Assembly (NCBI RefSeq): GCF_030936135.1
Contig: NC_082595.1
Location: 102,155,334-102,219,333 of the forward strand
DNA length: 64,000 nucleotides
Direction of reading: 5' to 3'
DNA from: Gavia stellata
Taxonomy: Eukaryota > Chordata > Aves > Gaviiformes > Gaviidae
Shown: one piece after another, positions 387-46,620 of the stretch
Layout of the letters: the number at the start of each line of letters is the position of its first letter
Numbering within the stretch: the first letter of the stretch is position 1
Program-made: the position numbers and the translations under genes
Notes under the pieces: generated by a model
What the model was told of the DNA's origin: nothing
The model's input: only the letters and a program-made list of their open reading frames with translations
The model's database searches: none

Positions 387-10334
<9,948 letters not shown>

Positions 10335-14198: not shown

Positions 14199-14254
14199 TC
14201 ATACAACCAGCTGTCTGCCTTGATACACCTGCAGCTTCTCAGACACTTCATCTA
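14199..14254 (-). CDS. MATN3: MATN3 exon 9: end of the coiled coil and stop
   Basis: This 56-base coding part follows a CCAC acceptor and encodes [18 protein letters not shown] and TGA at 14199-14201. Joined to exon 8 it restores the heptad pattern [12 protein letters not shown] of the trimer/tetramer-forming coiled coil. Confidence 0.92.
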
Positions 14255-17200
14255 GTGGTCAGTTGTTAAGGGCAATATAATAGATGGCTATAAGGTTTGC
14301 TTTATAATCTTCCTCATTGCTGCATTTTCAACAAACAGTCTGTTTTGAGCAATGAGGTCAATACATTCTTGAACCAGAGATTTCAAAACATTTTAGAGAT
14401 CTGTCAAGGTCTGGCCACTTCCCAAATGACCTCAATGACCCTAATTTCTTAGAAGGGGTTGGACCAAGTGACATTCGGGGCTGAGGAGCAGCAAATGATT
14501 GTCTCTGCTGCTTTTTCCAGGTTTTCTTGAAAGGATGCTAGGGATACAAATTGCCCACCAAACAATAACTTTGAAAGAAAGCATCAGTTCTTTGTGATAA
14601 AGTACTCCCCTAAATCAATTACTATTTGAACAAGAGTGCATTTTACGGAAAAAAGCATGTAGTCTCAAAAATTTCCAGTGATGAAAATCCTGGTAAATTG
14701 TCACAATGACCAACCCCTCTCACTTCTAAAAATCGTGCCTTATGTTGAATCACAGCTTGCCCAACTTTAACTTCCAGTTATTAGTTCCTGCCATGCCATC
14801 CGAGGGCATTTATTCCAGCATTCAGGTTTGCTGTGGTACCACAGAGTTCACCACCTTCTCTTTTTTTTTTTTGTTTTTTTCTCTGCCACATATTTGTGAA
14901 ATGTCTGATCTGGGGGCTGACCACATTTCTTTTTGCTGCCGCAGGCGCCGCACTGCAGCAAATGAAACCGGCAAATGCCAGCGCAGCGTAGCTGGCACCT
15001 GCCAGCCTGCACCTCAGATGTCCCACGGACCCGAGGCTTGCCCAGTGCCTCCAACTTCGGCACCCTGCCTTGCAGCTCTCCCGTTCTCGTATATCCCAGC
15101 AGCTGGATATTAATAGGCCAGCACATTTTCACGGAAAAGAAGGTTGTGCATGAAAATTGCTTGGGTGCGTGAAAATTGCCTGCCTGTGGAGGTGGGGTGC
15201 AGAGGAATACTGCAGCTAATGGGACTGTTGTCACACTGCCTGTGAAGTTGTCTTGAAAATTTTGGGACGTAATAGGAGGGCTCAAAACTGAGCATTTGTT
15301 TTAACAGTGAAAGTCATCTGGAAGAATTACGAACAGAGCAGTGCTTGATGTTCAACAGAGCATACATAATCTAGGTGATGTGGGCATGCGCATTTCATCT
15401 GTGTCTTGATACTAAAGCCCTTCAATGAAATATGAAAGCATAATGGTATTTGCAACAACCAAGATTTTGCTCCATAACATTTCTAAAATTACCAGGAAAA
15501 TACTTTCTGTTGTGAGGTGTGTTCCTTCCCTGGCTAACATCAAAGCAGCTCCCTCTGAAATACCAGTAAAAAGCTGAATGCAGAAGATCACATAAGAAAA
15601 AGGATATATTTTGTGGAGAGAGCTTCAAGGCGTGAAGTGACCGAGTCCTGCAGGACAGCTATGGCTTCACACTTACAGGATTCTTCAGTTGTTACGAGAC
15701 TGCTCGTTATGGCTCCTAAGAGAGAAAACAGCATTTAGAATATTTATGACAATTATGAAACATTTAAATCCCAGGAAAACGCTTGATTCTGCAACAGGAG
15801 TTGAACTCATGCTGTGAGACTACAGCAAGCACTGCAACCCAGGGCAGTCGGGAAGGAGGGACGGCAGAGAACAGGGGCTGGTGTGCAGCCAAAGATACGA
15901 ATGTCATAGTCCAGAAACAGGAGAGGCAAGAGAGAGTTTGACTCTAACCGAGGAGGAGGCAGAGCAGGTTGTTCCTCGCCTGCCTACCTGGATCCTCTGC
16001 GCTCTTTAAATTAGACCATTATTGAACAAAATATAAAAAGAGGCCTGGGTGCAGGGACCAACCAGCCTCCCCCATCAACTCTAATCACTAGACTAGTGTG
16101 AATCTTCCCTTCACTTGTTATCTCTCCCTCTTGTCCAGAATATCCCCCATCCCAAAAGGTAGGGCACCCTGGGGAGTAAAATGAGTGTGTTCAAGCGATG
16201 CAGACTGAGAAGAACCTGCAGTCCAAGTCTCTGTCTTGTAAGTAGTACTTTGACCTTGACTAGACTAGACTATCTACACAGGAAGGCCACTGGCATCACT
16301 GTAAACAGAATCTATTCAATTAGCTGTATTTAAGGCCATGACTAACTTACTGGGCTTCTCTTCAGAAGAATGATAGAATCATAAAATGATTTGGGTTGGA
16401 AGGGGCCTTTAAAGGTCATCTAGTCCAACCCCCCTGCCGTGGCCAAGGACATCTTTCACTAGACCAGGTTGCTCAAAGCCCCGTCCAACCTGACCTTAAA
16501 CACTTCCAGGGTTGGGGCACCCACAACTTCTCTGGGCAACCTGTTCCAGTGCCTCACTGCCGTCATAGTAAAGGATTTCTTCCTCGTATCTAAATGTATC
16601 TAAATAGAATCTAAATCTATCTACCTATACAAAATCAAGGTTGCTGCCCTGTCAAAGCTGGATTTTAATGACATTTGGGGTACCCATCACTCCCAAACAT
16701 AGCACTTCTGAGAATCCATTAGTCCAAAGTTAAACCTCCAGCAGTTTTGCAAGCCAAGCAGGAAGACACGTAGTGATTTTAGGCACATAAAGACTCGATT
16801 AGAGTGTTAGAAATTGGTCAGTTTGCATCAGTTTCTGAGATGTGGGTGGAATTTAGATACCTAAGTCTCAGCTTGGGAAGGAATTAGAAGAATTGAATTT
16901 ACCACTTGGTAAACAATACAAAAATGAAAGCAGTAACACATGTATTAATTTTAAATGCTAAGCAGTAAGGTTCAGCTAAATAATCAATGTGTATCACCCC
17001 ACAAGTACTCTTGGTTTGTAACATTGGCAATACGCATGCATAGGGAGTATAATTTTTGATTCATCAAGAAGTGTGAACACAAGTCCATTCCAAGGTCATG
17101 TGAATATGGATGGAGGGAACAACTTTCAAATAGGCCCAAATGAATTTAAAATCTAGTAGAAAGGCACAGCAGTATTAATGGAGGAGCCAGTTATATGACA

Positions 17201-20200
17201 GAGAAGTCATCAATCTCTTAAGAGAAAGCAAGCATTGCCATACTGCACAGTGGTTCCATTGAATCTCTTCCTAGGTCTTACCCTCAGTCTTCCAGACATA
17301 CAGAAGACCAGCCCTAGATGTCCTAAATAATTCCTTTTTCTCCATAATCCACCACAAAACCAGGGATGATCACAAAGGGCTCAGAGAGATGATAATTTCA
17401 TTGTGGTATAATAACATCAGGCATCCGCTGATGGCTGTGAGTTCATAGCTACATGAGTGGCAATTTAACCTCACCTACTCCATGAAGAAAATAGGAGTTA
17501 AGGCAAGCTGCGCCACTTGCTGCAGGCTAAGAACAAACATATCAACAGCTACTGAAGCACAGGTACTGTAATAAGATTACCGTCTACATCTGAGACCAGA
17601 ATAATAAGCTTCCAAAGGCAGAGTCTTCTTAAAAGAGGGCCTACAATTATGAAATACCCTTTCAACAAGTTATCAAGAGGTATTACGTGTGTGTCTCCTG
17701 ACACCTGTGTTTTTACGTTGCTTGCAAAGGCAACGACAGCAGATTATTCAATTATTTTTTCTGTAGATATATAAATGCATTTATAATAGCTGATCAATGC
17801 CAAACAAATTATGTGAGCATTGTAACAGTAAAACAATAGAAATATTATACCTGGATACAATTTCTCTTTTTTTCTGAATTGTTTTGGTTTCTTTTTATGT
17901 TTATCAATCATGCCATTGATATTTCCATTTTGCAGGGAAACTGCAAAATCTATGAACAGATTCATTTCTAGCAGTGCAGAAATTCATTTGTCTTAGAGCC
18001 AATCTTGAAACTGGTGTCTCCTTGATTCCACTGAACCTGTATTTGTTCAGCTCCCTTCTTTGGAATGTTCTGCCGGCTTTATGGTCAATGTACAAAGAAG
18101 AGCTGTTCAAGAGTCAGCTGGAGGAAGGCCAGTTCAAAATATCACACCAACGTGGTTGGTTTCCAACCAGCTGCCAGTTAATTTTTTATGTTTGCATTTA
18201 AATTCTCCAATGACAGATACAGATCCTCCTTGGATTATGTCTGTTTTAAGAAAATTACTTTTCCAACCAACTTTGGCAACTGCCCAAGGGTACCCTGAAG
18301 TCTTCTACAGTCCTTCTGTGAAATTTAGAGTCTTCCAGTATTTGATATTCAAAATCTTGGACACTCCCATTGCCACTGGGACACCCAACAAGTCATACAA
18401 AACATGCTAGAGTTGTGTTTTTACACTGCATTTATGTTTAAGTCCAGACCTACAAAAAATTACTATTTTTGCAGATGGTGTTTGGCTATAGCCACCTATT
18501 TTATAACTTTGCTCTTACATAAGGTCCTTAGCCACTTGATGTAATGGCAAGTTATTCCTCCTCTGAACCAGAGATCGGACTAGGTACCTATTGAGGTCCC
18601 TTCCAACCCAACTTTACTTATGATTCTACATCAAATGGTGCAGAGGTTCTGCCAGCAGTTGATGCCATTATTGCTCATCTGAAGGGAAAACAGTTGGTGA
18701 GTTCATGCCCGCCCCACTCAGCTTGGAGGAGTGGACAAGAACATATGGTTTAGCATTGCAGTAGTTCTTCTGACACCAGTTCTGTTCCCCTCTGACTTCC
18801 CACCATCCCCTGAATGCTGGCATGCAATTGAGTCCCATGCCCCAGAGACAGATGCCCCAGAACCCTGCCTTTCCAATCACCCCAATTATTCCCATTTCAT
18901 AAGGAAATGCAATTTGTAACAGATTATTTTTTTTAATACTGTGAAGTCCTTAAATGTGTGGTGATAGGTAGGAGTCAACTGTAATTTTAAATACAATGAT
19001 TGCTGTAACTAAGCAAGAAGGATCAAACTAGCTCGAAACATTAGTGGAAACAGGCAGAAAAGAATGAAAAGGGTTTATACATTCAGGGAGTTAGTGAGTT
19101 GATAGAACATTTCTCAAACAGATTAAAAGGATTTAACAAATTAAAGAGAGGTACTTCAATAAATATATTCAGAAAAAAAACCCAAACCATTAAATTATTA
19201 CTTGAGCATGTTTTCTCATCTGGATTTAAGGTAAAGCCTTTATAGCAGTCACAGGTATATGATCCAGCATTACTCACACAGACCTGCTCACAGTCATGGG
19301 CTCCCGGTGCACATACATCAGTTCCTACAGAATGCTTTTTGGAGAAAGTTATCCGAAAACAAGATAACATTGCTTCCCAATGGCAATGCTTTTCCGTGCT
19401 GAGAGCCTATCCTACGTGAATCTTACCACTACTGAGATATGTAACTGATCTTGCCTTGGAGCAGCGAGATGAACTAATTGCCTTACTGGGGTCTCCCTCA
19501 GTCCTTACTTTGTACAGCCTATGCTCACTCTGACCGCAGCTGCCTGACCCCACCAGATGTGGAGTGCCAGATCACCTCCAAAGGCATGCTATGAAAAGCT
19601 GCAGCACACAATAACTTCACCGTAAGGAGACCGGGAACGAAAGAACCATTTTTATAAAAATTACATTTTTACTATAACACAAAGTTAGCTGAGAAGCTAA
19701 AGAAACAAACAGCAACATGAAATTCAGCCAGGAGGGGAGGACACCACTTCAATATCTCCTGGATGGTGGTACGCAGTTTCCACAGTACTGCAGAGTGTGT
19801 GACTGTGTGACTAACCCCAGCTTTTCTCTCTTCAGTTATGTCTCAGTTCTGGGTTTGCAGAATATTGCTTTTTTTTTTTTTTTTAAATACAGTGAAGGCC
19901 TTAGTTATAAGGTGGTAAAGAAAGACCAAATGGTAAACAGTTACATACAAAGTGCTTTATATCTCTGAATGTTGCTCGAAGTGGAAAAGGCAGAGTGACA
20001 TAGAACTGTCTTATAACACTTGAATGCGTGTGAAAGTTTCTCAAACAGATCCAAATATATTAACCTTCTAATGAGAGCTATTTCAATACATGTACTTATC
20101 TGGAGAGGGTATGGGGGAATAGGGAACAGCAATCTGCTCTTACTTGAGCAAGTCTTCTTGTCTGGATTCAGGGTGTAGCCTTGGTAGCAGTCACAGGTAT

Positions 20201-23200
20201 AGAACAGATCGTCTCTTATGCAGAGCTGCTCGCAGTCGTGCCTTCCAGGTGCACACATGTCGACAGCTGAGGAAGGCATTTGAGAAGACAATACCCAAAT
20301 TTCAGCCTTTTTAGTTGGTGTTAGTAATTCCCATTTGCAAACCTATCTTCATTTGGATTCAAACCAGGATGTTTTTATTGCGTGTCAGCACACTATTAGC
20401 CATAGTAGGGTATACAGAGTGTGTTTTTATCCGGCTATCAACATCACAAAATTAATACGATTTTTGGAATACTGGCAACGCTTTTTTGCAGTTGTAACAG
20501 ATTGCAAAAGGAACCGAACTAGCAGTGACCCAGTTACAAAATAATGATCCAAAGGAATTTCAGAGAACAAATATCTGGATTTTAAGAGACTATTTGGCAT
20601 TATTTCAGCTCTAATTGAGTTGGATAAGACACTGTTTTATGGAGTGAAAAGACCATAAACAGAAGAGTATACATGGCTGCTAAAAAAAAGAGAGACGTGG
20701 CACCCACTGCCAGTTACAAAGTGGGTACTTTATGTGTGAGGCTGATGTTTTCTGCCAAATTTAACACGTCAGCTCTGAAAGGGCAAGCTGAGAAGGCGTT
20801 CCTATATTTGGATATCTTTGCACTGAAGAGGTCCAGTAAGGCACAAGCAAAGAAAGAAAGAAAAAAGCCCCTCCTGGACCTAGACTATTTTTATTATATC
20901 ACAAAGACCTGGATGGTTGAGAAATCATTAGCGGCATACTGCAAAATGAGATTCAAAAGGAAAAAAAAAGCAAGCATATTAGGGAAATAATCTGAAATTT
21001 GACTATGCAGGGGGAGAATCAGTGCTATGAAAGGAGGTTCAGGACTGGACTCCCAAAGGGGATACCTAACTGAATTCACATTCCCTTCACAGATGTTTAT
21101 TGCGTCTCTATAATGCCAGGTGAGAGCTAATCTTAGGAACTATATTTACAAAATCAGCTCCTAAACTAGGCAGGAAGAAATATTGAGGCCCTCAGGCTTC
21201 ACCTCTTTGAGATGCGAGACATATGACTTATTTGGAGAGATTTGCCTAGGAACCTCCTGGAACTGGAAGCCTAGGTTCAGCGCTTTGTCACACAAAATGG
21301 AGTAAGGAAAGGAATTACGATGGAAATGGAAGAAAGGATTTTGCGTAAATAAATCATCAGTGAGACATCCAAAGAAATTAGGAGTGATATTCAAATCCTC
21401 ATCTAGTGAAAATAATATAGAACACATTAATTTGTAGGTACTATATACTTAAATGTGCATCCTTAAGTACCAGCTATACCTATGCTCCTGGTCTCCACAA
21501 GAGCCCAGCACTGGGAAAGAACATTTCCCTCCATCCTCTAAAGCTTTAAGGCTGGAGTATTTTTTAAGGTCCAAACACATCCACCAGAAAGAGTGATCAC
21601 ACTCATGATGCAGGGGTCTCAAATTATTACATGTAGAAAAAAAGTTGCACTGTGTTTTCAGGAATTGTACAGAAACTCTTGGATAATTTGTCAGAAAAAT
21701 AACATAAATTAACCTGATTTTTTAAATTTACTTGGTTTTGGCTGAACACAATGTTTCCTTGATCAGGTCTTACCTGAGCAAGTCTTCTTATCTGGATTCA
21801 GGGTGTATCCTTCAAAGCAGTCACAGAGGTAGGATCCATCATTACTCAGACAGACTTGTGCACAATCATGCCTTCCAGATGCGCACACGTCCGTGGCTGT
21901 GGTGAACCATGTTTTAGAGAAGAAAGCTATTAATCCCTCCCAGACACTCAAGCGTATTAAATGCTTCAACGTTTATAAGTACAATTTAATTAGGATTCAA
22001 ATTAGGATTCAACCAGTGCCCTACTATATTATTACATTATGCTGCAGACAACTGAATTCAGTTACTAATTATTTAATGCAGGAGGCAGGTGTCTGGACTG
22101 CAAGACATTACTGTACCACGACTCAGGCAATCTGATTTTTATCAGCAATTCTAACAGCCCTGAATATCCCCAGTAAGGATGAAGCTAAAACACCATACTG
22201 AGATGAGCAATAACCTGCCACATGTCAAGGCAGAAGTTGTTTCTTGCAGTATTAGCAGTAACTGTGGTGAATCCAAATTTAACGTCATACTTTCATCCAT
22301 GAGCAGAAGGCAGGCACAAAAAGCCGGGCATGATATGTAGAAATGCTATTAAATGGCAAAGAGATACAAAGCCTAGTGAGAACAAAAGCAAACAAACAAA
22401 CAAACAAACAAAAAAGCAGGAGCACTAGAAGATTATGTTCTCTCTTCAGAAATAAAAAGAGTGAAAACTTCATCGTGAAGAATGCTTATGTGCTCTCTAA
22501 AGGAGGGATGCACTTACCAGTCACAAAATAGCTACCCTAAGGCTGGTGCCACTCAGAACTTCTGGATTTAAAGAAACAACTCCAGAGAAGTACTTGGGGG
22601 AAAAGAAGTTTTTATAATAATTTTCTAATAAATTTTACAATAAATTTTCAGGGTGACAATTCAAGAAGCTGCTGCCAGTGTAAGATTGGGGTTGCTATAT
22701 CGCAGATCCCTGCACAGCTTGGAAGCAGAAGCAGCAAGCTGTGAAAAAAATGAGTTTCGACAGGAGAGATGGAGAGGACAGGGGAAAACCATCAGGTTTT
22801 AAGTTCTCTATGGACGAGTGGCACTCACTCTCCAATGGAGAAACAGTGCTGGTGGGCATCTCTGGAATAGGTTTATCCTCTCCCAGGGACTACGTGATGT
22901 TTATGAAATACTGCAAAGACCATAAAATGGTAGGCAAGTCCCAAATTGCACTTTTGTAATCAATACATTTAAAGAAAAATGCAATTTTACTGTTACTGGA
23001 ACCAAGGGGAAATTGTACAGGTGAATTCTTATTTTAAGAGTTGATGTCTGTAAGCAATTTTTCAATTAGAAACAATGAAGGTAACTCACAGAAAACATGT
23101 CCATGTTTCCACGAGTTTCATATATTATAGTAGCCTTTAATTCTTACCTGAGCAAGTCTTCTTATCTGGATTCAGGGTGTAGCCTTCATAGCATTCACAG

Positions 23201-26200
23201 ACATAGGATCCGTTGTTACTCACACAGATCTGATCACACTCATGCCTTCCAGGTGCACACATGTCCACAGCTGCAAGACACACATTGGAGAAACAATTCA
23301 AACAGAACAAGTAGTTTGGCGCGAAGTGCACGTTCATGTTTTTGAATATATTTCTATTTGGAATCAGCTCAGAAATGGCAATAGTAATTGAAGGAAATAG
23401 AGTAAGTGTTAGGAGAAAATATCTATACAGTGTCTACATCTGAAGACTTTGTTTTGGCATCTGGCCCTAATGAATGGTTCTGTAGGCATAATAAAAAGGA
23501 TGGTGATGGAATCAAACTATTTCTGAGCATTACTTGCAGTAGACTTTATTTATTTATTATTTATTATTAGATATATTATTACTGAAGGAGATACAGACGT
23601 TCACTGTTTCACCAGAAGTACACAAGTAGCTTCTCAAATCCAATTATGATGTTAAAAAGTGATTTTTTTTCTAGTTGAACACATTTACCAAAGGAGTAAT
23701 ACCTGAGCAGGTTCTCTTGTCTGGATTGAGAGTGTAGCCTTCATAGCAATCGCAAAGGTAGGATCCGCTGTTACTCACACAGACCTGCTCGCAGTCATGG
23801 GTCCCAAGTGCACACACATTCGCAGCTGCAAAGGGCATTTACAGAAAAGGCATTTCAGCCATCCCAAAGGAGAGAAACATGCATTAATAATGTATGCTTA
23901 CAAAGTACATCTTGAACTGTTTGCTGGATTAGTAGTAGTAAATGTCAGTGCTGTGCCACCGTCACAAAAGTTACAGGCATCTTTTGCATGATTCTGTAGC
24001 CAGAAGAAAGAGGTCATAAACAACACTGGAACAACTGCACTGAAATAACTCACCACCTGAGGTGGCAGAAAGGGAAGATTAATCTGAAAAGGGTACAACA
24101 GGGAGAGAGAGGTTTTAGGCATTTAGTAACATTACACTGGAAATGAGAACTCAGCAATGAAAAGGACCTTCTGGCTTATTATATCCAGTCCCTTTCTATT
24201 ACAGACAACCAGTTCAAATAATCCCAAAATGTATCAGTCACTGTCTGGCAGCTTACTAACTTCTGCTCACTGGCATATGACCTGATTTATGAATTCCTGC
24301 TGCACTGTAAAAAACTACCATGTAAACTGCAATGTGGCAGAAAGCACAATAAATAAAATAAAATAAATAAGATAAAACAAAATAAACTGCAATAGAAAAA
24401 GCATCAAGACCAGGAGGAAAAGAAAAATGACTCAGTGGGACTAAGATAACACTGTCTTCTCAGGGATGAAGAGAGGGTCTGCATAATTATGGTGTATCAG
24501 CCAGCAAAGAAACCCACCGGTGCAAGAAGGGTGTGCGAGGGCTGCAGCTGCCTTGTTCCATCAGGTTTAAAAAGACAAGACCAAAAGAGGATACGGACGA
24601 AAGTTTCTACAGTAAGGTAGCTTTACAGGCACGTGAACCTCCTAATTGAAGGGCAGTGCAGAAATAACATCCAAACCTCAGAGAACTGAGAAGCTGAAAC
24701 TGCAAACTACAAAATGAGATTCAACTTTTGGGGACCGGCTAATTCCCCAGCAGACAGTAAGGCTATCTCATCAGACTGAGAAAACAGAAAACAGTGATAC
24801 GAAAAGCAGCGTGACATATGGCAGCTGATGTAACTGTGTTGTGTTGACAGGGTAGACAAAATGACTCTTGTAACGCTGAGCTGTCTCTGCAACGCACTAT
24901 GTGTGCTGACAGTCTTTTCCTTCACAGATGGTCTAAGTAACTAATTCTGACCAATTTTTCTGAGGTGTATTTAGCTTTGGATCTGCTGCTTCTTCGGTCA
25001 CCTCAAGATGCCTCTGTTTCTCTCCACAGACTGTAGAGGAATCCTAGATTCTTGCTTAAACTTAGATGATTTTTAGATTACTAAATTTAGATGAGATGAA
25101 AAAGGGAAGGGGAGAGGGGAGGGGGGAGGAAAAAAGGTGGAGGAAAAAAGTGGGAAGGGGGAAAGAAAGAAAAGAAAGAAGGAGGAAACAAAAGGGAAAA
25201 GGAGAAAAATGGAAGGACAAGTCTGTTATTACCTGAGATGTTATTTACATGAGTAGTTACAATGTGGGTAAAATCAAACTCCAACGCAATAGTGACATAA
25301 GAAATGAGAAGCAAGAATGCTTGAATCTTCTCATGTATTTTTGAATGAAAGGCAACATTGCCCATTTTCTAAAACATGGAAGATTTAGATGTCCCCTAAT
25401 AAGGCTGATAGAAAGTGTGTCTTGTATTTCCATTGGCAAAAACAAATCTCAAAACAAGACAGCGTCTTTTCATTTTGCCACACCCTTGGGAGTAAGAGAA
25501 TTCATCTCCATGACTTCTGAACAAAATCTGTGGGTGATATTTTCAACCATAACTGAGAAGCTTGGACTCAAGTGGTCAGATTTTTGTGGTAGGAAAGTCA
25601 AGCTTCCACTGACTTGGACACCAATTCAAGGTGAAGATTTTCCATCTCCAGGATGGTCTCATGTTGAATGATGCTCTCAGTGCATCAAGAACTTGATCTT
25701 AGCCAACTATTTTGCCCCTGAACATTAGCCTTCCTGTTCTCAGTTCATCCTACAAACAAATTTATTTGCCTTGGCCAAAGCAAAGAAAATCCTAATTGTC
25801 ACTGGTGAGTCTCAAATTTCTGACCAAAAAGCAGTCTGGAGCTGGAAAAGACCCAGCTTACCCACACTGTCTTACAAGACCCTCTTAGATTCATTTGGTT
25901 TATAGGAACCTTTTGAAAAACTATTCCCTTTACCCCATTTTTGTCCATGAATCCCACGGATTCTGGCTAATTGCATGCAGGAAACTCAGTTACACTGGAA
26001 GGGTGTATGTGTGAGCTCTCTCTGGTTTATCCTCCAGCTTAGTAGGGGCATAATTCCTATGCTTCAGCACAATAAACAGTAAGTTTACTCTTAAGAACAA
26101 GAGATCTTTTTCTTTGGTGCTATGAAAGGACTTGCTTTGGTGAGAACATAGGTGGAAAATTAGTGCTATGTTCACAGCGCACATATCTGCCCAGCTAGGT

Positions 26201-29200
26201 GGGCATTTGTACCCACTTCCAGCTACCAGAGAGAGGATGTGGTCACATCAGCAACACAACATGTTGTCAAGCCAAACCTCAAGGCGTTTCCTATGATAAT
26301 TATTGGGCAAAGTGTCCTGTCTACAGATGGTCCTACACATTTATTTCATACCTAGAAAAAGAGGTATTCAAATGGTATGGTGGTAATTTTTAGTAAGGCT
26401 CTGAAATAGCAAAGTAACACCTTGCCAGTCAAGTTCCCAAGGCAATGGCTGTTACTTTAATTCTCTTACAATGTTCTTTACACCTGATTTTACCCATTAC
26501 TTGCTGGATATTTATTTTACAAGTAATTTCCTTAGAAATTTGCTAGAAAAAATCTACTTCATACAGGTTTTTTAACCGTCAAAAAGTCGTTGTTTGATTT
26601 TTTGGGTAGGGCTGTGGCATAGCTATCTACAGGCAGTTCTCAATACTCCAGATAAATGACTTTTTTTTCTGTAAATTACAAGAACAACCCACACTGGCCT
26701 AGCATCGTTAGTGGAGTTCTAGACCAAACCAAATATACATCCAGCATTTTTCCAAGACCAGCCCTCAAAGAGCGAAGCTAATTCAACCCATCCCACAGTT
26801 CCCTGTCTAAATCAAGTTGCAGAGAAACCCAGAAAGGTGCGAGTCCGGCAATGCCTGCAGAGTGAAAGCCCATCCCAAGATGATCTGCCATTGTGTTCGG
26901 GCACTTCATCCTGGACCAAATTTCTCAAGCTAGGGTGACAGTTCACCTGCCACACTGATTTTCCTACTCTGAATCTATAAGGAGCCCTTCAGAACCACAC
27001 TTCCACCCTCCTCGCTTCCCAGCCAGACGGGAAAAGAAATGAGCAGACTGCACAGCTCCAGTATGCACTCTCGGTAAGTCAGTAAATGCACATAGCCGAA
27101 TCCCAGCCAGATCGCTGTGCTTTCTCTTGCACTAAACTGGGCCAACTGCACAAGGAGGTCCACTGAAACCAGGTCTGTTACTTGCATGGTAAGGTCACTA
27201 TTCAAAAGGAAAGGTCATTACTTGGCCTCCACTGAATAAAAGGGTTGAATGTTTGCTCAACGGATGGTAAAGGAAATATTTAAATGTGAAACATAGCACT
27301 TCTCATAAAGAAAAACAACTTTCTGAGATAAAGAAAAACTTCTTTCTTAGGGAGTGGAACCACAGTAGGAGCCAAAAGGAGCCAAATTACACTACCCTCT
27401 TGGACTGACCACCTTACCACAGAAAGTCTCTCTGAATTTGGATGTCAGCTTTTCGATCACACCGTAGGTCTCCACATAAAAGACGTGTTCATCCAGTGGT
27501 TCGCTGGCCATTATCCTCAGGGACTGCATGTCTGCCCGGTCTACCCCAACTGCATAGATCTCAATGCCAGCTGTCCGGGCACTTGCTGCCACGTCTTGAA
27601 CCTGGTCTTGTGGTCGTCCATCTGTCACAACAATGACCACCTTGGGGATATTGAAGGTTGCTGGCCGGCTGCCCATTTCCTCAGTGAAGACTTCATCCAT
27701 GGCAGTTTGGATGGCAAGGCCGGTCATTGTGCCAGCAGACAAGGGCTCAATGTGAGATATAGCCTCCTTCATAGATGCTTTATCAAAGTAGGTTCGGAGG
27801 GGAAACTCTACCTTGACAGTGCTGGCATAATTCATGACCGCCACACGGGTTGTTCTTTCACCAACGTCCAGAGTATCAATCATTTTTGACAAAAAGATCT
27901 TCACTTTCTCAAACTCTTCAGGTCGGACGCTACGGGAACTGTCTATGATGAAGACGAGGTCTAGGGGCTGGTTCTTGCAGGCAGTGTCTGTCAAGAAGGA
28001 AGGAAAACACTTCAGTCATCTCCTACACAGGATCAGAGCTCTCACCCTAGGGCAGCGAGAGCTGTCATGGCAAACTACTCCTACCAGATAAACGCTGGCA
28101 CTCTTGGTTGTCTAGGAAGAGGCTCAAAATTATAGCGAGCAACACATTATTTTATCTATATGTAATATATAGATAAATAAAATAGGTATGTGTATATATA
28201 TTAAATATATATATTTATATTATTATATAAATTCTTAAATGTTCATTTTGACAAGTAATAAATAATTGAACTTTTCTAAGCATTAAAAGATGTGTCCACA
28301 TTTAAGCCCACAAAATGTCTAACTATCCTTGAAACAAAGGATTGTAGTTTGCACATAACAGCCAACACAGAAATGTGGCAATGATATATAAATATACTTA
28401 CTTTTTATTTTTATAAAGATAAAGCCTGAATTCCATTGTTATAAGCTACAGAAATAAAATGGTAAAACAACTGGCTAGATTACATAGTGAACAAACCCCA
28501 ACAATTTTTTTTAGGATAGTAACAATATAGATTGCTGATTAGGAATTATTTTGTGTTTGTAATTCACAATCCAAAGTACACAACAAGAAGAAATAAAGGC
28601 CAACAGGAAAAAGATGCAAATGATGCTGTGGTAAAGGGTTCTTTAGAAGTTGTTACTGTTTAAGGGCTTCTAGAGCAGAGAAGAAAATTGAACTTACTAT
28701 TTATGAACTAATTTTACATGTAAAAATGAAGATTTACACAAATATTTCTAGCTTCTAAAATTCCTCACTGACATATAAATCTAGACAGAAACAGAAAAGC
28801 AATAGCTCAGATCAGAGACAAGCATCACTTCTAGGAAGACAAAAAATAAGCAAGACAGCAACAACAGGCAAGCTAAGCTGTGCACCCTCTGTCCTGATAC
28901 CCTGACCTGACACTGACGATACCGTGAGGTTAGTTTATACCATCAAGGTATGGATTTGTACTGCTGGTTTATGAAAAACACACAACCCAAAGCACAATAT
29001 TTCTACAAAAGAGACATTCCTGCTCAACAGTGCATTAAATAGAAAAATGTGAGGTGTTCAGTTTGAATACACTCCCTGAAGAGCTGTTTTGGGAATGTGA
29101 CGCACCTTTCCCAGCTCCTGTCAGGTTGACTTCTATTATTCCATTCCAGTTTTAAAAAAAATAAAAATAGAAGTTCTTCACATGTCTCTTAAAAGTAGAG

Positions 29201-30170
29201 GTGAAAACAGCACCTTTTTTTTTTTTAGTGCATTAAAAAACTTTTTTTCTCTTGTGCAAGTTAAAAGGGGGGGAAGAAATCAAATTGCACAGATAGATCT
29301 TACTTCCATCAGGAAACACAACAGTAGAGCTGATTTTGCTTTTGAACAGAGTAATGGACTGGACGAATCTAGGATCCCATCCAGGACTGTTATATATAGT
29401 TCTACATGCATCCCATAACTCAGTTTTTGCCTAAGGATTTAGAAGAATGGCTTTGTGCCCTTCGGAAAGCTGAGAGAACATGTTTGTCCATGGATGCATA
29501 GCTTAAGACATGAAAGAAAGAGAGACACAATGTTTGTCCTACAAAAAAAGACCAAATCCAGATTTGTCGGCAGAAGAATTTTCTTTCTTAGATCAAGAAA
29601 AAAAGACCTTTTCAGCAGCCTGATCCTTCTGTGAGTCTGAAAGAGATGTTTTGAGAAATGAACGCAGGTAGGGAAGAGTTATATAGGTTTTAGAGATTAG
29701 CAAGGCCAGCTTTGCTTAAAAAAAAGTAGTTGGCACTGCTGCCTACAAGCGCACGGCCCACGGACCGCTGCAGCTACAGCGAAATGCCCCTGGGGCACAA
29801 CCTTCCTGTAAAACCAAGCGTGTAAGGAAACGCCCTAAGAGGAGCGATGGTGGGGGGTCCCCGGCGCGGCTGGGGAGCAGCGAGCAGAGCGTGCAGCGAG
29901 CGAGCCGGAGGGCATCGCCCCCGGGCAGGGCTGGCCGGGGGCGCGCAGCCCCCGCGGGAGGTAGCCGGCTGCGGGGAGAAGGCAGCTGCCGCTGCCCCGC
30001 GGGAGTACGGTACCTGCCGCGGCGTGGCTCCCGGAGAGGCCGCCGCCCGGCCGCGGCTGCCGGCGCAGGCGGTGCGGGGAGCCCCGCGTCGCGGGCGGCA
30101 GCGGCAGCAGCAGCAGCAGCGGCGGCAGCAGCGCCAGGCAGCAGCCCAGGATGCCGAGCGCCCGCCCCAT
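14199..30170 (-). CDS. MATN3: MATN3, matrilin-3 (complete, nine coding exons, five EGF modules)
   Basis: Matrilin-3 is a secreted oligomeric adaptor of cartilage matrix that links collagens, COMP and proteoglycans. Exons read leftwards: 30014-30170, 27418-27987, 23703-23825, 23148-23270, 21774-21896, 20144-20266, 19202-19324, 15608-15715 and 14199-14254. All internal junctions are phase 1, and the joined frame is 501 residues. Order: signal peptide and basic linker (1-52), vWA (53-242), EGF1-5 (243-447, 41 residues each, six cysteines), coiled coil (448-501). The vWA has MIDAS motif DSSRS at 68-72 and VTDG. The last intron is AT-AC. Human matrilin-3 (486 residues) and, from memory, chicken (about 452) have four EGFs, so EGF5 is extra here. 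The gene sits between WDR35 and LAPTM4A, as in human. Confidence 0.95.
14255..15607 (-). other. MATN3: U12-type AT-AC intron in MATN3
   Basis: The intron starts ATATCCTT at 15600-15607, a perfect U12 donor. It has a branch-site match CCCTTAAC at 14265-14272, and ends CCAC at 14255-14258, about a dozen bases later. Matrilin genes are known for an AT-AC intron in the coiled-coil region. Nothing else is seen within it. Confidence 0.92.
15608..15715 (-). CDS. MATN3: MATN3 exon 8: first half of the coiled coil
   Basis: This 108-base exon follows a CTCTTAG acceptor and encodes [20 protein letters not shown], then [16 protein letters not shown]. The CKC pair is the usual interchain disulfide site ahead of the matrilin coiled coil. 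It ends in phase 1 at ATATCCTT, a U12-type AT-AC donor, not at a GT. Confidence 0.93.
16373..16605 (-). mobile_element. CR1 LINE 3' fragment, reverse orientation
   Basis: The plus strand shows the reverse complement of a CR1 3' end: GGTTGGAAGGGGCCTTTAAA, TCTAGTCCAACCCCCCTGC, GGCAACCTGTTCCAGTGCCT and a TTTCTTCCT end. It is truncated and non-coding. Confidence 0.96.
18571..18629 (+). mobile_element. CR1 3' tail fragment
   Basis: A short, diverged CR1 end is seen: GATCGGACTAGGTACCTATT, then a GGTCCCTTCCAACCCAACTT block and a TGATTCTA end. Confidence 0.8.
19202..19324 (-). CDS. MATN3: MATN3 exon 7: additional EGF module 5
   Basis: This 123-base phase 1-1 exon encodes [20 protein letters not shown], then [20 protein letters not shown] and S. 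All six cysteines are present and there is no stop. The acceptor is TTCTGTAG; the donor GTAATAAT is weaker than those of the other EGF exons. The exon can be skipped or included without a frame change, because both flanking junctions are A|GA (Arg). It is intact in sequence; use in mRNA is inferred. Confidence 0.8.
20144..20266 (-). CDS. MATN3: MATN3 exon 6: EGF module 4
   Basis: This 123-base phase 1-1 exon encodes [20 protein letters not shown], then [20 protein letters not shown] and S. The acceptor is TCCTCAG and the donor GTAAGAGC. The RDDLFYTC stretch resembles the last EGF of chicken matrilin-3 as I recall it. Confidence 0.95.
21774..21896 (-). CDS. MATN3: MATN3 exon 5: EGF module 3
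   Basis: This 123-base phase 1-1 exon encodes [20 protein letters not shown], then [20 protein letters not shown] and S. The acceptor is CACCACAG and the donor GTAAGACC. Confidence 0.95.
22390..22412 (+). repeat. (AAAC)n microsatellite in MATN3 intron 4
   Basis: About six AAAC units lie in the intron between EGF2 and EGF3. Confidence 0.85.
23148..23270 (-). CDS. MATN3: MATN3 exon 4: EGF module 2
   Basis: This 123-base phase 1-1 exon encodes [20 protein letters not shown], then [20 protein letters not shown] and S. The acceptor is CTTGCAG and the donor GTAAGAAT. Confidence 0.96.
23703..23825 (-). CDS. MATN3: MATN3 exon 3: EGF module 1
   Basis: This 123-base phase 1-1 exon encodes [20 protein letters not shown], then [20 protein letters not shown], with six cysteines in EGF spacing. 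The acceptor is TTTGCAG and the donor GTATTACT. Confidence 0.96.
23826..27417 (-). other. MATN3: MATN3 intron 2 (vWA to EGF1)
   Basis: This 3.6-kb intron holds an A-rich AAATAA-type tract at 24346-24390 and a long polypurine tract at 25093-25216. No exon-like open frame with EGF or vWA features was found in it. Confidence 0.7.
25093..25216 (+). repeat. Polypurine tract in MATN3 intron 2
   Basis: About 120 bases are almost entirely A and G on the plus strand, with G-runs (GGGGAGGGGGGAGG type) and GAAA repeats. Such tracts can form triplex or G-rich structures. Confidence 0.85.
27418..27987 (-). CDS. MATN3: MATN3 exon 2: von Willebrand factor A domain
   Basis: This single 570-base phase 1-1 exon carries the entire vWA domain. 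It starts [20 protein letters not shown] and contains the metal-site elements DSSRS, the threonine in SAGTMTGLA and [10 protein letters not shown]. It ends at SKFRETFC. The acceptor is TTGACAG and the donor GTAAGGTG. Confidence 0.97.
28141..28236. repeat. AT-rich low-complexity tract, MATN3 intron 1
   Basis: Alternating TA-rich sequence (TATATATTAAATATATAT type) of about 95 bases lies in intron 1 (27988-30013). The rest of this intron shows nothing recognisable. Confidence 0.85.

Positions 30171-33115: not shown

Positions 33116-46620
<13,505 letters not shown>

Follow-up and report, generated by a model that had tools for sequence, protein, structure and literature searches.

Structure of the MATN3 locus

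The window, that is, the whole 64-kb stretch of DNA analyzed (C2:102155334-102219333 of the Gavia stellata assembly), contains a complete matrilin-3 gene (MATN3) on the minus strand. Its parts, in the direction of transcription, are as follows:

30014–30170, minus strand: MATN3 exon 1, coding part from the ATG (signal peptide); open reading frame with a hydrophobic N-terminus, donor CAG/GTACCG
27418–27987, minus strand: MATN3 exon 2, vWA domain; Pfam VWA E-value = 3.7e-54 on the containing ORF, AG/GT borders
23703–23825, minus strand: MATN3 exon 3, EGF 1; 123 nt, phase 1-1, six cysteines, AG/GT borders
23148–23270, minus strand: MATN3 exon 4, EGF 2; 123 nt, phase 1-1, six cysteines, AG/GT borders
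21774–21896, minus strand: MATN3 exon 5, EGF 3; 123 nt, phase 1-1, six cysteines, AG/GT borders
20144–20266, minus strand: MATN3 exon 6, EGF 4; 123 nt, phase 1-1, the counterpart of the final EGF in the chicken cDNA, no Gly-Ser in the loop from the third to the fourth cysteine (C3-C4)
19202–19324, minus strand: MATN3 exon 7, EGF 5, the exon studied here; 123 nt, phase 1-1, six cysteines, AG/GT borders
15608–15715, minus strand: MATN3 exon 8, encoding the hinge and the start of the coiled coil; Pfam Matrilin_ccoil E-value = 8.9e-9
14255–15607, minus strand: U12-type AT-AC intron between exons 8 and 9; ATATCCTT donor, CCTTAAC branch site, AC acceptor
14199–14254, minus strand: MATN3 exon 9, end of the coiled coil and stop codon; spliced frame, preceded by the AC acceptor

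The spliced frame is open from the ATG at 30170 to the stop codon ending at 14199 and encodes 501 amino acids with exon 7 or 460 without it. According to the Pfam matches of the spliced product (VWA, EGF families and Matrilin_ccoil), a single vWA domain is followed by the EGF modules and the coiled coil, and a second vWA domain is absent. Five phase 1-1 EGF exons of 123 nt, all having six cysteines and splice sites, had been described in a sequence-only reading of this DNA; they were confirmed on the minus strand, and the coordinates of exon 7, the preceding donor (20144), the next acceptor (15715) and the donor GTAATA were all found to be right.

The coiled-coil region of MATN3 is split by the AT-AC intron, whose donor and branch site are textbook-like. 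WDR35 adjoins MATN3: two ORFs on the minus strand, 303–605 and 4386–4748, match the Pfam WDR35/TULP4 N-terminal family with 58 and 66.7 bits as single exons, both below the family cut-off of 80. WDR35 is also the neighbor of MATN3 in human. A purine/pyrimidine-rich tandem repeat, open in several frames on both strands, lies in the WDR35 part (3503–3827). A further ORF on the minus strand (46037–46354), without a Pfam match above the cut-off, resembles the start of LAPTM4A. Globin exons of this 1.32-Gb assembly are those of a bird, one beta exon being identical over 75 amino acids to chains 3eok_B and 3a59_B; the likeness of the gene to chicken MATN3 agrees with this.

Exon 7 as an EGF exon

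Exon 7 (19324–19202) has an open frame without a stop codon, six cysteines in EGF spacing and AG/GT borders, and the match of its product to EGF families is well beyond chance (Pfam FXa_inhibition E-value = 3.1e-9; EGF_CA E-value = 7.6e-8). A tblastn search of the 64-kb window with the five EGF modules recovered the five exons, the next hit having an E-value of 0.061, and neither tblastn nor blastn with the five modules over the window revealed a sixth EGF copy or remnant in the MATN3 gene. Among the best candidates in the same assembly, the DNA of exon 7 matched at least four places, namely itself and MATN3 exons 3, 4 and 6. At the protein level, 37 places were matched in the whole assembly, of which the top five were the MATN3 exons, followed by one C29 exon (63%) and then by MATN2 exons (on C3) and C20 exons. 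Thus, exon 7 is a genuine intact EGF-type exon at the sequence level. An origin of exon 7 as a duplicate of the assembly process was ruled out, as at least 32 of its 123 bases differ from every other EGF exon.

The structure matches listed for the vWA domain and for exon 7 were integrins, collagen VI, von Willebrand factor and other EGF proteins, with no matrilin among those listed (in one search, the best 60 of 95). No relatives of the vWA domain were found in viral contigs.

Comparison with chicken and described matrilin-3

Matrilin-3 is described with four EGF modules (PMC4849044; PMC2427018, introduction), which agrees with the number assumed in the sequence-only reading. The gene of Gavia stellata resembles this protein in its vWA domain, EGF array, hinge, coiled coil and adjoining WDR35, and differs from it in that five intact EGF exons are present instead of four. 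Primers for the chicken matrilin-3 cDNA, together with the chicken hinge, are printed in PMC2427018 (Table 2); that they represent chicken and not mouse cDNA is our own reading of the letters. The primer from the start of the EGF region agrees with exon 3 in 16 of 20 bases, versus 9–13 for the other EGF exons, and the hinge primer matches exon 8 in 16 of 18 bases. The primer from the end of the last EGF matches exon 6 in all 16 bases, exons 4 and 5 in 15, exon 3 in 13 and exon 7 in only 12.

The hinge encoded by exon 8 of the window resembles that of chicken MATN3, and in the published chicken sequence the EGF/coiled-coil junction, RATTSSLVTDEEA, comes directly after an EGF of the exon 6 type. 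The first residue of the hinge, arginine, requires a final A in the preceding exon, which is present in exons 6 and 7 and absent from exons 3–5; either of the two, when joined to exon 8, yields the same arginine codon. The primer matches and the requirement for the final A therefore indicate that the chicken cDNA, as far as it is represented in this source, has an exon 6-type EGF followed immediately by the coiled coil, with exon 7 absent. Consequently, judged from these primer sequences, exon 7 is the extra module relative to the chicken cDNA of PMC2427018, as had been proposed from the sequence of the locus.

A literature search combining "matrilin" with "five EGF" yielded no paper apart from one on an ant genome. 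By their titles, the papers found for MATN3 with birds or avian selection were hen transcriptome studies only, and none of those found for matrilin-2 with chicken concerned EGF number.

Tandem duplication of exons 6 and 7

The 400-nt flanks of all EGF exons were compared pairwise (10 downstream and 15 upstream pairs), with 100 dinucleotide shuffles per pair. Among the downstream pairs, only that of exons 6 and 7 stood out, with a score of 124 and z = 22.0 against shuffles that reached no more than 45. The remaining 24 pairs were not clear of their shuffles, the highest being the downstream flanks of exons 4 and 6 (z = 3.8, with a score equal to the shuffle maximum); none of the 15 upstream pairs exceeded z = 2.4, and exons 6 and 7 gave z = −1.1. 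The best local alignment runs continuously through exon and intron (20286–19746 versus 19346–18795) and defines two copies of one block:

19746–20286, minus strand: exon 6 copy, comprising about 20 nt upstream, the exon and about 400 nt of intron 6; local alignment to 18795–19346, intron part z = 22
18795–19346, minus strand: exon 7 copy; local alignment to 19746–20286

Exons 6 and 7 are thus an old tandem-duplicated pair, and exon 7, regarded in the sequence-only reading as the extra exon, is one half of this pair and not a lone addition.

The starts of introns 6 and 7 share 70% identity over 333 aligned columns (about 350 nt; K80 = 0.385); with another scoring, 216 columns gave K80 = 0.362, and a 57-column core gave 0.247. 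With the rates of 2 to 3.9 × 10−9 substitutions per site per year given for bird introns in PMC2946954, K values of 0.36–0.385 correspond to about 46–97 million years since the copying, which is likelier to be too young than too old because only alignable sequence was counted; from the 57-column core alone, an age of some 32–62 million years would follow.

Exon similarity and selection

Exon 7 is roughly equidistant from the other EGF exons, sharing 86 to 91 of 123 bases with each. It should be noted that exons 6 and 7 are not the nearest exon pair, their identity (86/123) being as low as that of any pair. In the last 41 bases, comparison of exons 4, 5 and 6 gave 40, 37 and 36 identical positions, with 40 of 41 shared by exons 4 and 5, and the values for exon 7 were only 30 to 32. 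The near-identical ends suggest gene conversion among exons 4–6 (21774–23270 on the minus strand, and exon 6). Such conversion, had it taken place after the duplication, would explain why the two exons with related introns are not the most similar two in sequence.

Changes private to one exon were counted as nonsynonymous or synonymous. Exon 7 carries 5 nonsynonymous and 8 synonymous private changes, a total of only 13, with a larger silent share than expected under neutrality (P = 0.0096). Counts of this kind would be skewed if sequence had been converted between exons. The corresponding numbers were 4 and 7 for exon 3 (P = 0.012) and 4 and 5 for exon 5 (P = 0.067), and exons 4 (5 and 0, P = 1) and 6 (9 and 5, P = 0.32) were indistinguishable from neutral. 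Pairwise dN/dS between exon 7 and the other EGF exons ranged from 0.08 to 0.25, with dS saturated in several pairs. In a neutral simulation of 20,000 exons, in which survival meant that the splice dinucleotides, the frame and the six cysteines were all kept, 391 exons survived at 0.2 changes per site, 150 at 0.25 and 984 at 0.15; the intron K80 of 0.36–0.39 amounts to about 0.19 per copy. Taken together, these data tilt clearly, though not overwhelmingly, toward constraint, under which exon 7 has probably evolved.

Of the duplicated pair, exon 6 is the copy that departs from the EGF consensus. Its C3-C4 loop has Leu-Phe in place of Gly-Ser before the conserved Tyr (IRDDLFY versus VSNxGSY), and its private changes are concentrated mainly in codons 14–21. 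The ratio of 9 to 5 private changes and the lost Gly-Ser may reflect selection that has been relaxed or altered for this module (20144–20266, minus strand).

Splicing signals of exon 7

Among the seven donors, that of exon 7 pairs most poorly with U1 (−1.6 kcal/mol, versus −4.5 for exon 6, −7.1 to −8.5 for exons 1–3 and −11.0 for exons 4 and 5). The acceptor of exon 7, with 9 pyrimidines in 17 positions, is the second lowest of seven, after that of exon 5 (8/17). The donor GTAATA had been called weak, and on this basis alternative use had been suggested: the weakness was borne out by the U1 pairing, but it does not by itself show alternative use, as the donors of exons 1 and 3 have the same number of consensus matches (6/9). 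Nor is the exon 7 donor alone distinctive, because 96 of the 191 GT sites in intron 7 pair with U1 equally well or better.

A further candidate signal lies beyond the donor:

19173–19180, minus strand: eight consecutive T, +22 to +29 after the exon 7 donor, candidate TIA1/TIAL1 site; T-run scan

Behind the donors of exons 2–6, the five used for comparison, T runs at +7 to +46 reach at most 4 nt. According to PMC2964331, TIA1/TIAL1 bind U-rich sequence beside the donor, recruit U1 and enhance inclusion, and TIA clusters 10–28 nt past an alternative exon are a predictor of inclusion. By analogy, the run of eight T may act as a TIA1/TIAL1 aid to the inclusion of exon 7. Being symmetric (phase 1-1), exon 7 can be included or skipped without a frame change, as had been anticipated, and its use as a cassette exon is plausible. 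Adjacent copies, homologous introns and frame-neutral inclusion are features shared with tandemly duplicated symmetric cassette exons, for which the pair described here is a candidate.

Origin and probable use of the fifth EGF exon

The reading that we prefer, with a probability of about 0.68, is that a fifth EGF module is truly encoded by exon 7 under constraint; the exon originated as a tandem copy and would be included in part of the transcripts, in a tissue-dependent manner. A block of about 540 bp, consisting of one EGF exon and about 400 nt of the following intron, was copied in tandem to give exons 6 and 7. The ends of exons 4, 5 and 6 would later have been homogenized, most easily by gene conversion, with exon 7 being spared, as the pattern of identities suggests; exon 6 has changed in its C3-C4 loop. 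Insertion or omission of the symmetric exon 7 would give a protein of 501 or 460 amino acids. Weak U1 pairing, combined with a U-rich tract at a position where TIA1/TIAL1 helps U1, would be expected to result in partial, tissue-dependent inclusion. Inclusion would add 41 amino acids to the rod that separates the adhesive vWA domain from the oligomerizing coiled coil. The EGF modules plus coiled coil of matrilin-3 have been proposed to bind BMP-2 (PMC4849044), and inclusion may, by extension from the literature on the four-EGF protein, add a module to this region.

It is also possible, although we hold it only tentatively, that exon 7 is always included, so that five EGFs would be constitutive and the four-EGF form would be the state of chicken, which either lost the exon or never gained it. 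The constraint seen in the private changes agrees with this, as does the occurrence of equally weak donors (6/9) on exons 1 and 3, which are indispensable for the known protein; however, no other donor of the gene is as weak as that of exon 7, its acceptor is poor as well, and a symmetric exon followed by a U-rich tract has the layout of a regulated exon. The same weak donor and acceptor would be expected of a fossil, formerly used and recently gone from the mRNA, with decay yet to come, and exon 7 is indeed missing as the last EGF from the chicken cDNA of PMC2427018. A fossil is nevertheless unlikely, since its private changes would not be expected to be mostly silent (5 versus 8) and only 391 of 20,000 neutral exons survive 0.2 changes per site, although a very recent loss would escape both the private-change test and the simulation. 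The outcome of a dead exon, entertained in the sequence-only reading, is therefore disfavored by the pattern of changes.

The two copies might also serve as alternatives, with four EGFs kept and only the fourth being chosen. This would suit tandem duplicates that both end in A, provide the same arginine codon at the exon 8 join and have strongly different C3-C4 loops; since both exons are symmetric, however, the choice would not be enforced by the frame, and we regard such an arrangement as quite improbable. A constrained fifth EGF exon with partial inclusion thus remains the preferred reading.

Matrilin-3 acts as a bridge between collagen fibrils, mutations in it occur in human skeletal dysplasias, and the number of its EGF modules is usually treated as fixed. 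EGF exons are well known to be gained through tandem duplication, and the present finding is a modest one, namely, a gained EGF exon of a kind already known. According to the introduction of PMC2427018, EGF number is without effect on assembly. A bird with a fifth, selectively kept EGF module would offer a natural test of how EGF number bears on spacing, BMP-2 binding and assembly.

Other matrilins in the same genome

The matrilin loci of the same genome were scanned for six-cysteine patterns with a splice test, which gave one EGF exon in the C29 locus, four in the C20 locus, five in MATN3 and 19 in MATN2. By EGF count and synteny, the C29 and C20 loci are presumably MATN1 and MATN4, respectively. 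Matrilin-2 and matrilin-4 resemble matrilin-3 in having EGF modules on symmetric exons of 123 nt, and the number of modules varies among the members. Matrilin-2 differs from matrilin-3 in having two vWA domains, and its 19 EGF exons here contrast with the ten modules described for mammalian matrilin-2 in PMC6271824. The gain of EGF exons in this genome thus extends beyond MATN3. A more general reading, which we consider doubtful, is that the matrilin EGF arrays of this bird lineage are being remodeled: MATN3 would have acquired a regulated fifth EGF exon by tandem copying, the C3-C4 loop of exon 6 would then have diverged, MATN2 would have grown to 19 EGF exons, and the length of the matrilin rod would vary in avian connective tissue and be set partly by splicing.

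The MATN2-type locus (C3:25200761-25240346, L017-L021) lies on the minus strand, with its 19 EGF exons between two vWA domains. The splice test was passed by 18 of these exons; the nineteenth failed since the pattern overran by one cysteine, and GTGAGT follows that exon. Twelve of the 19 exons sit in two tight clusters, within which neighbors are 213–420 bp apart.
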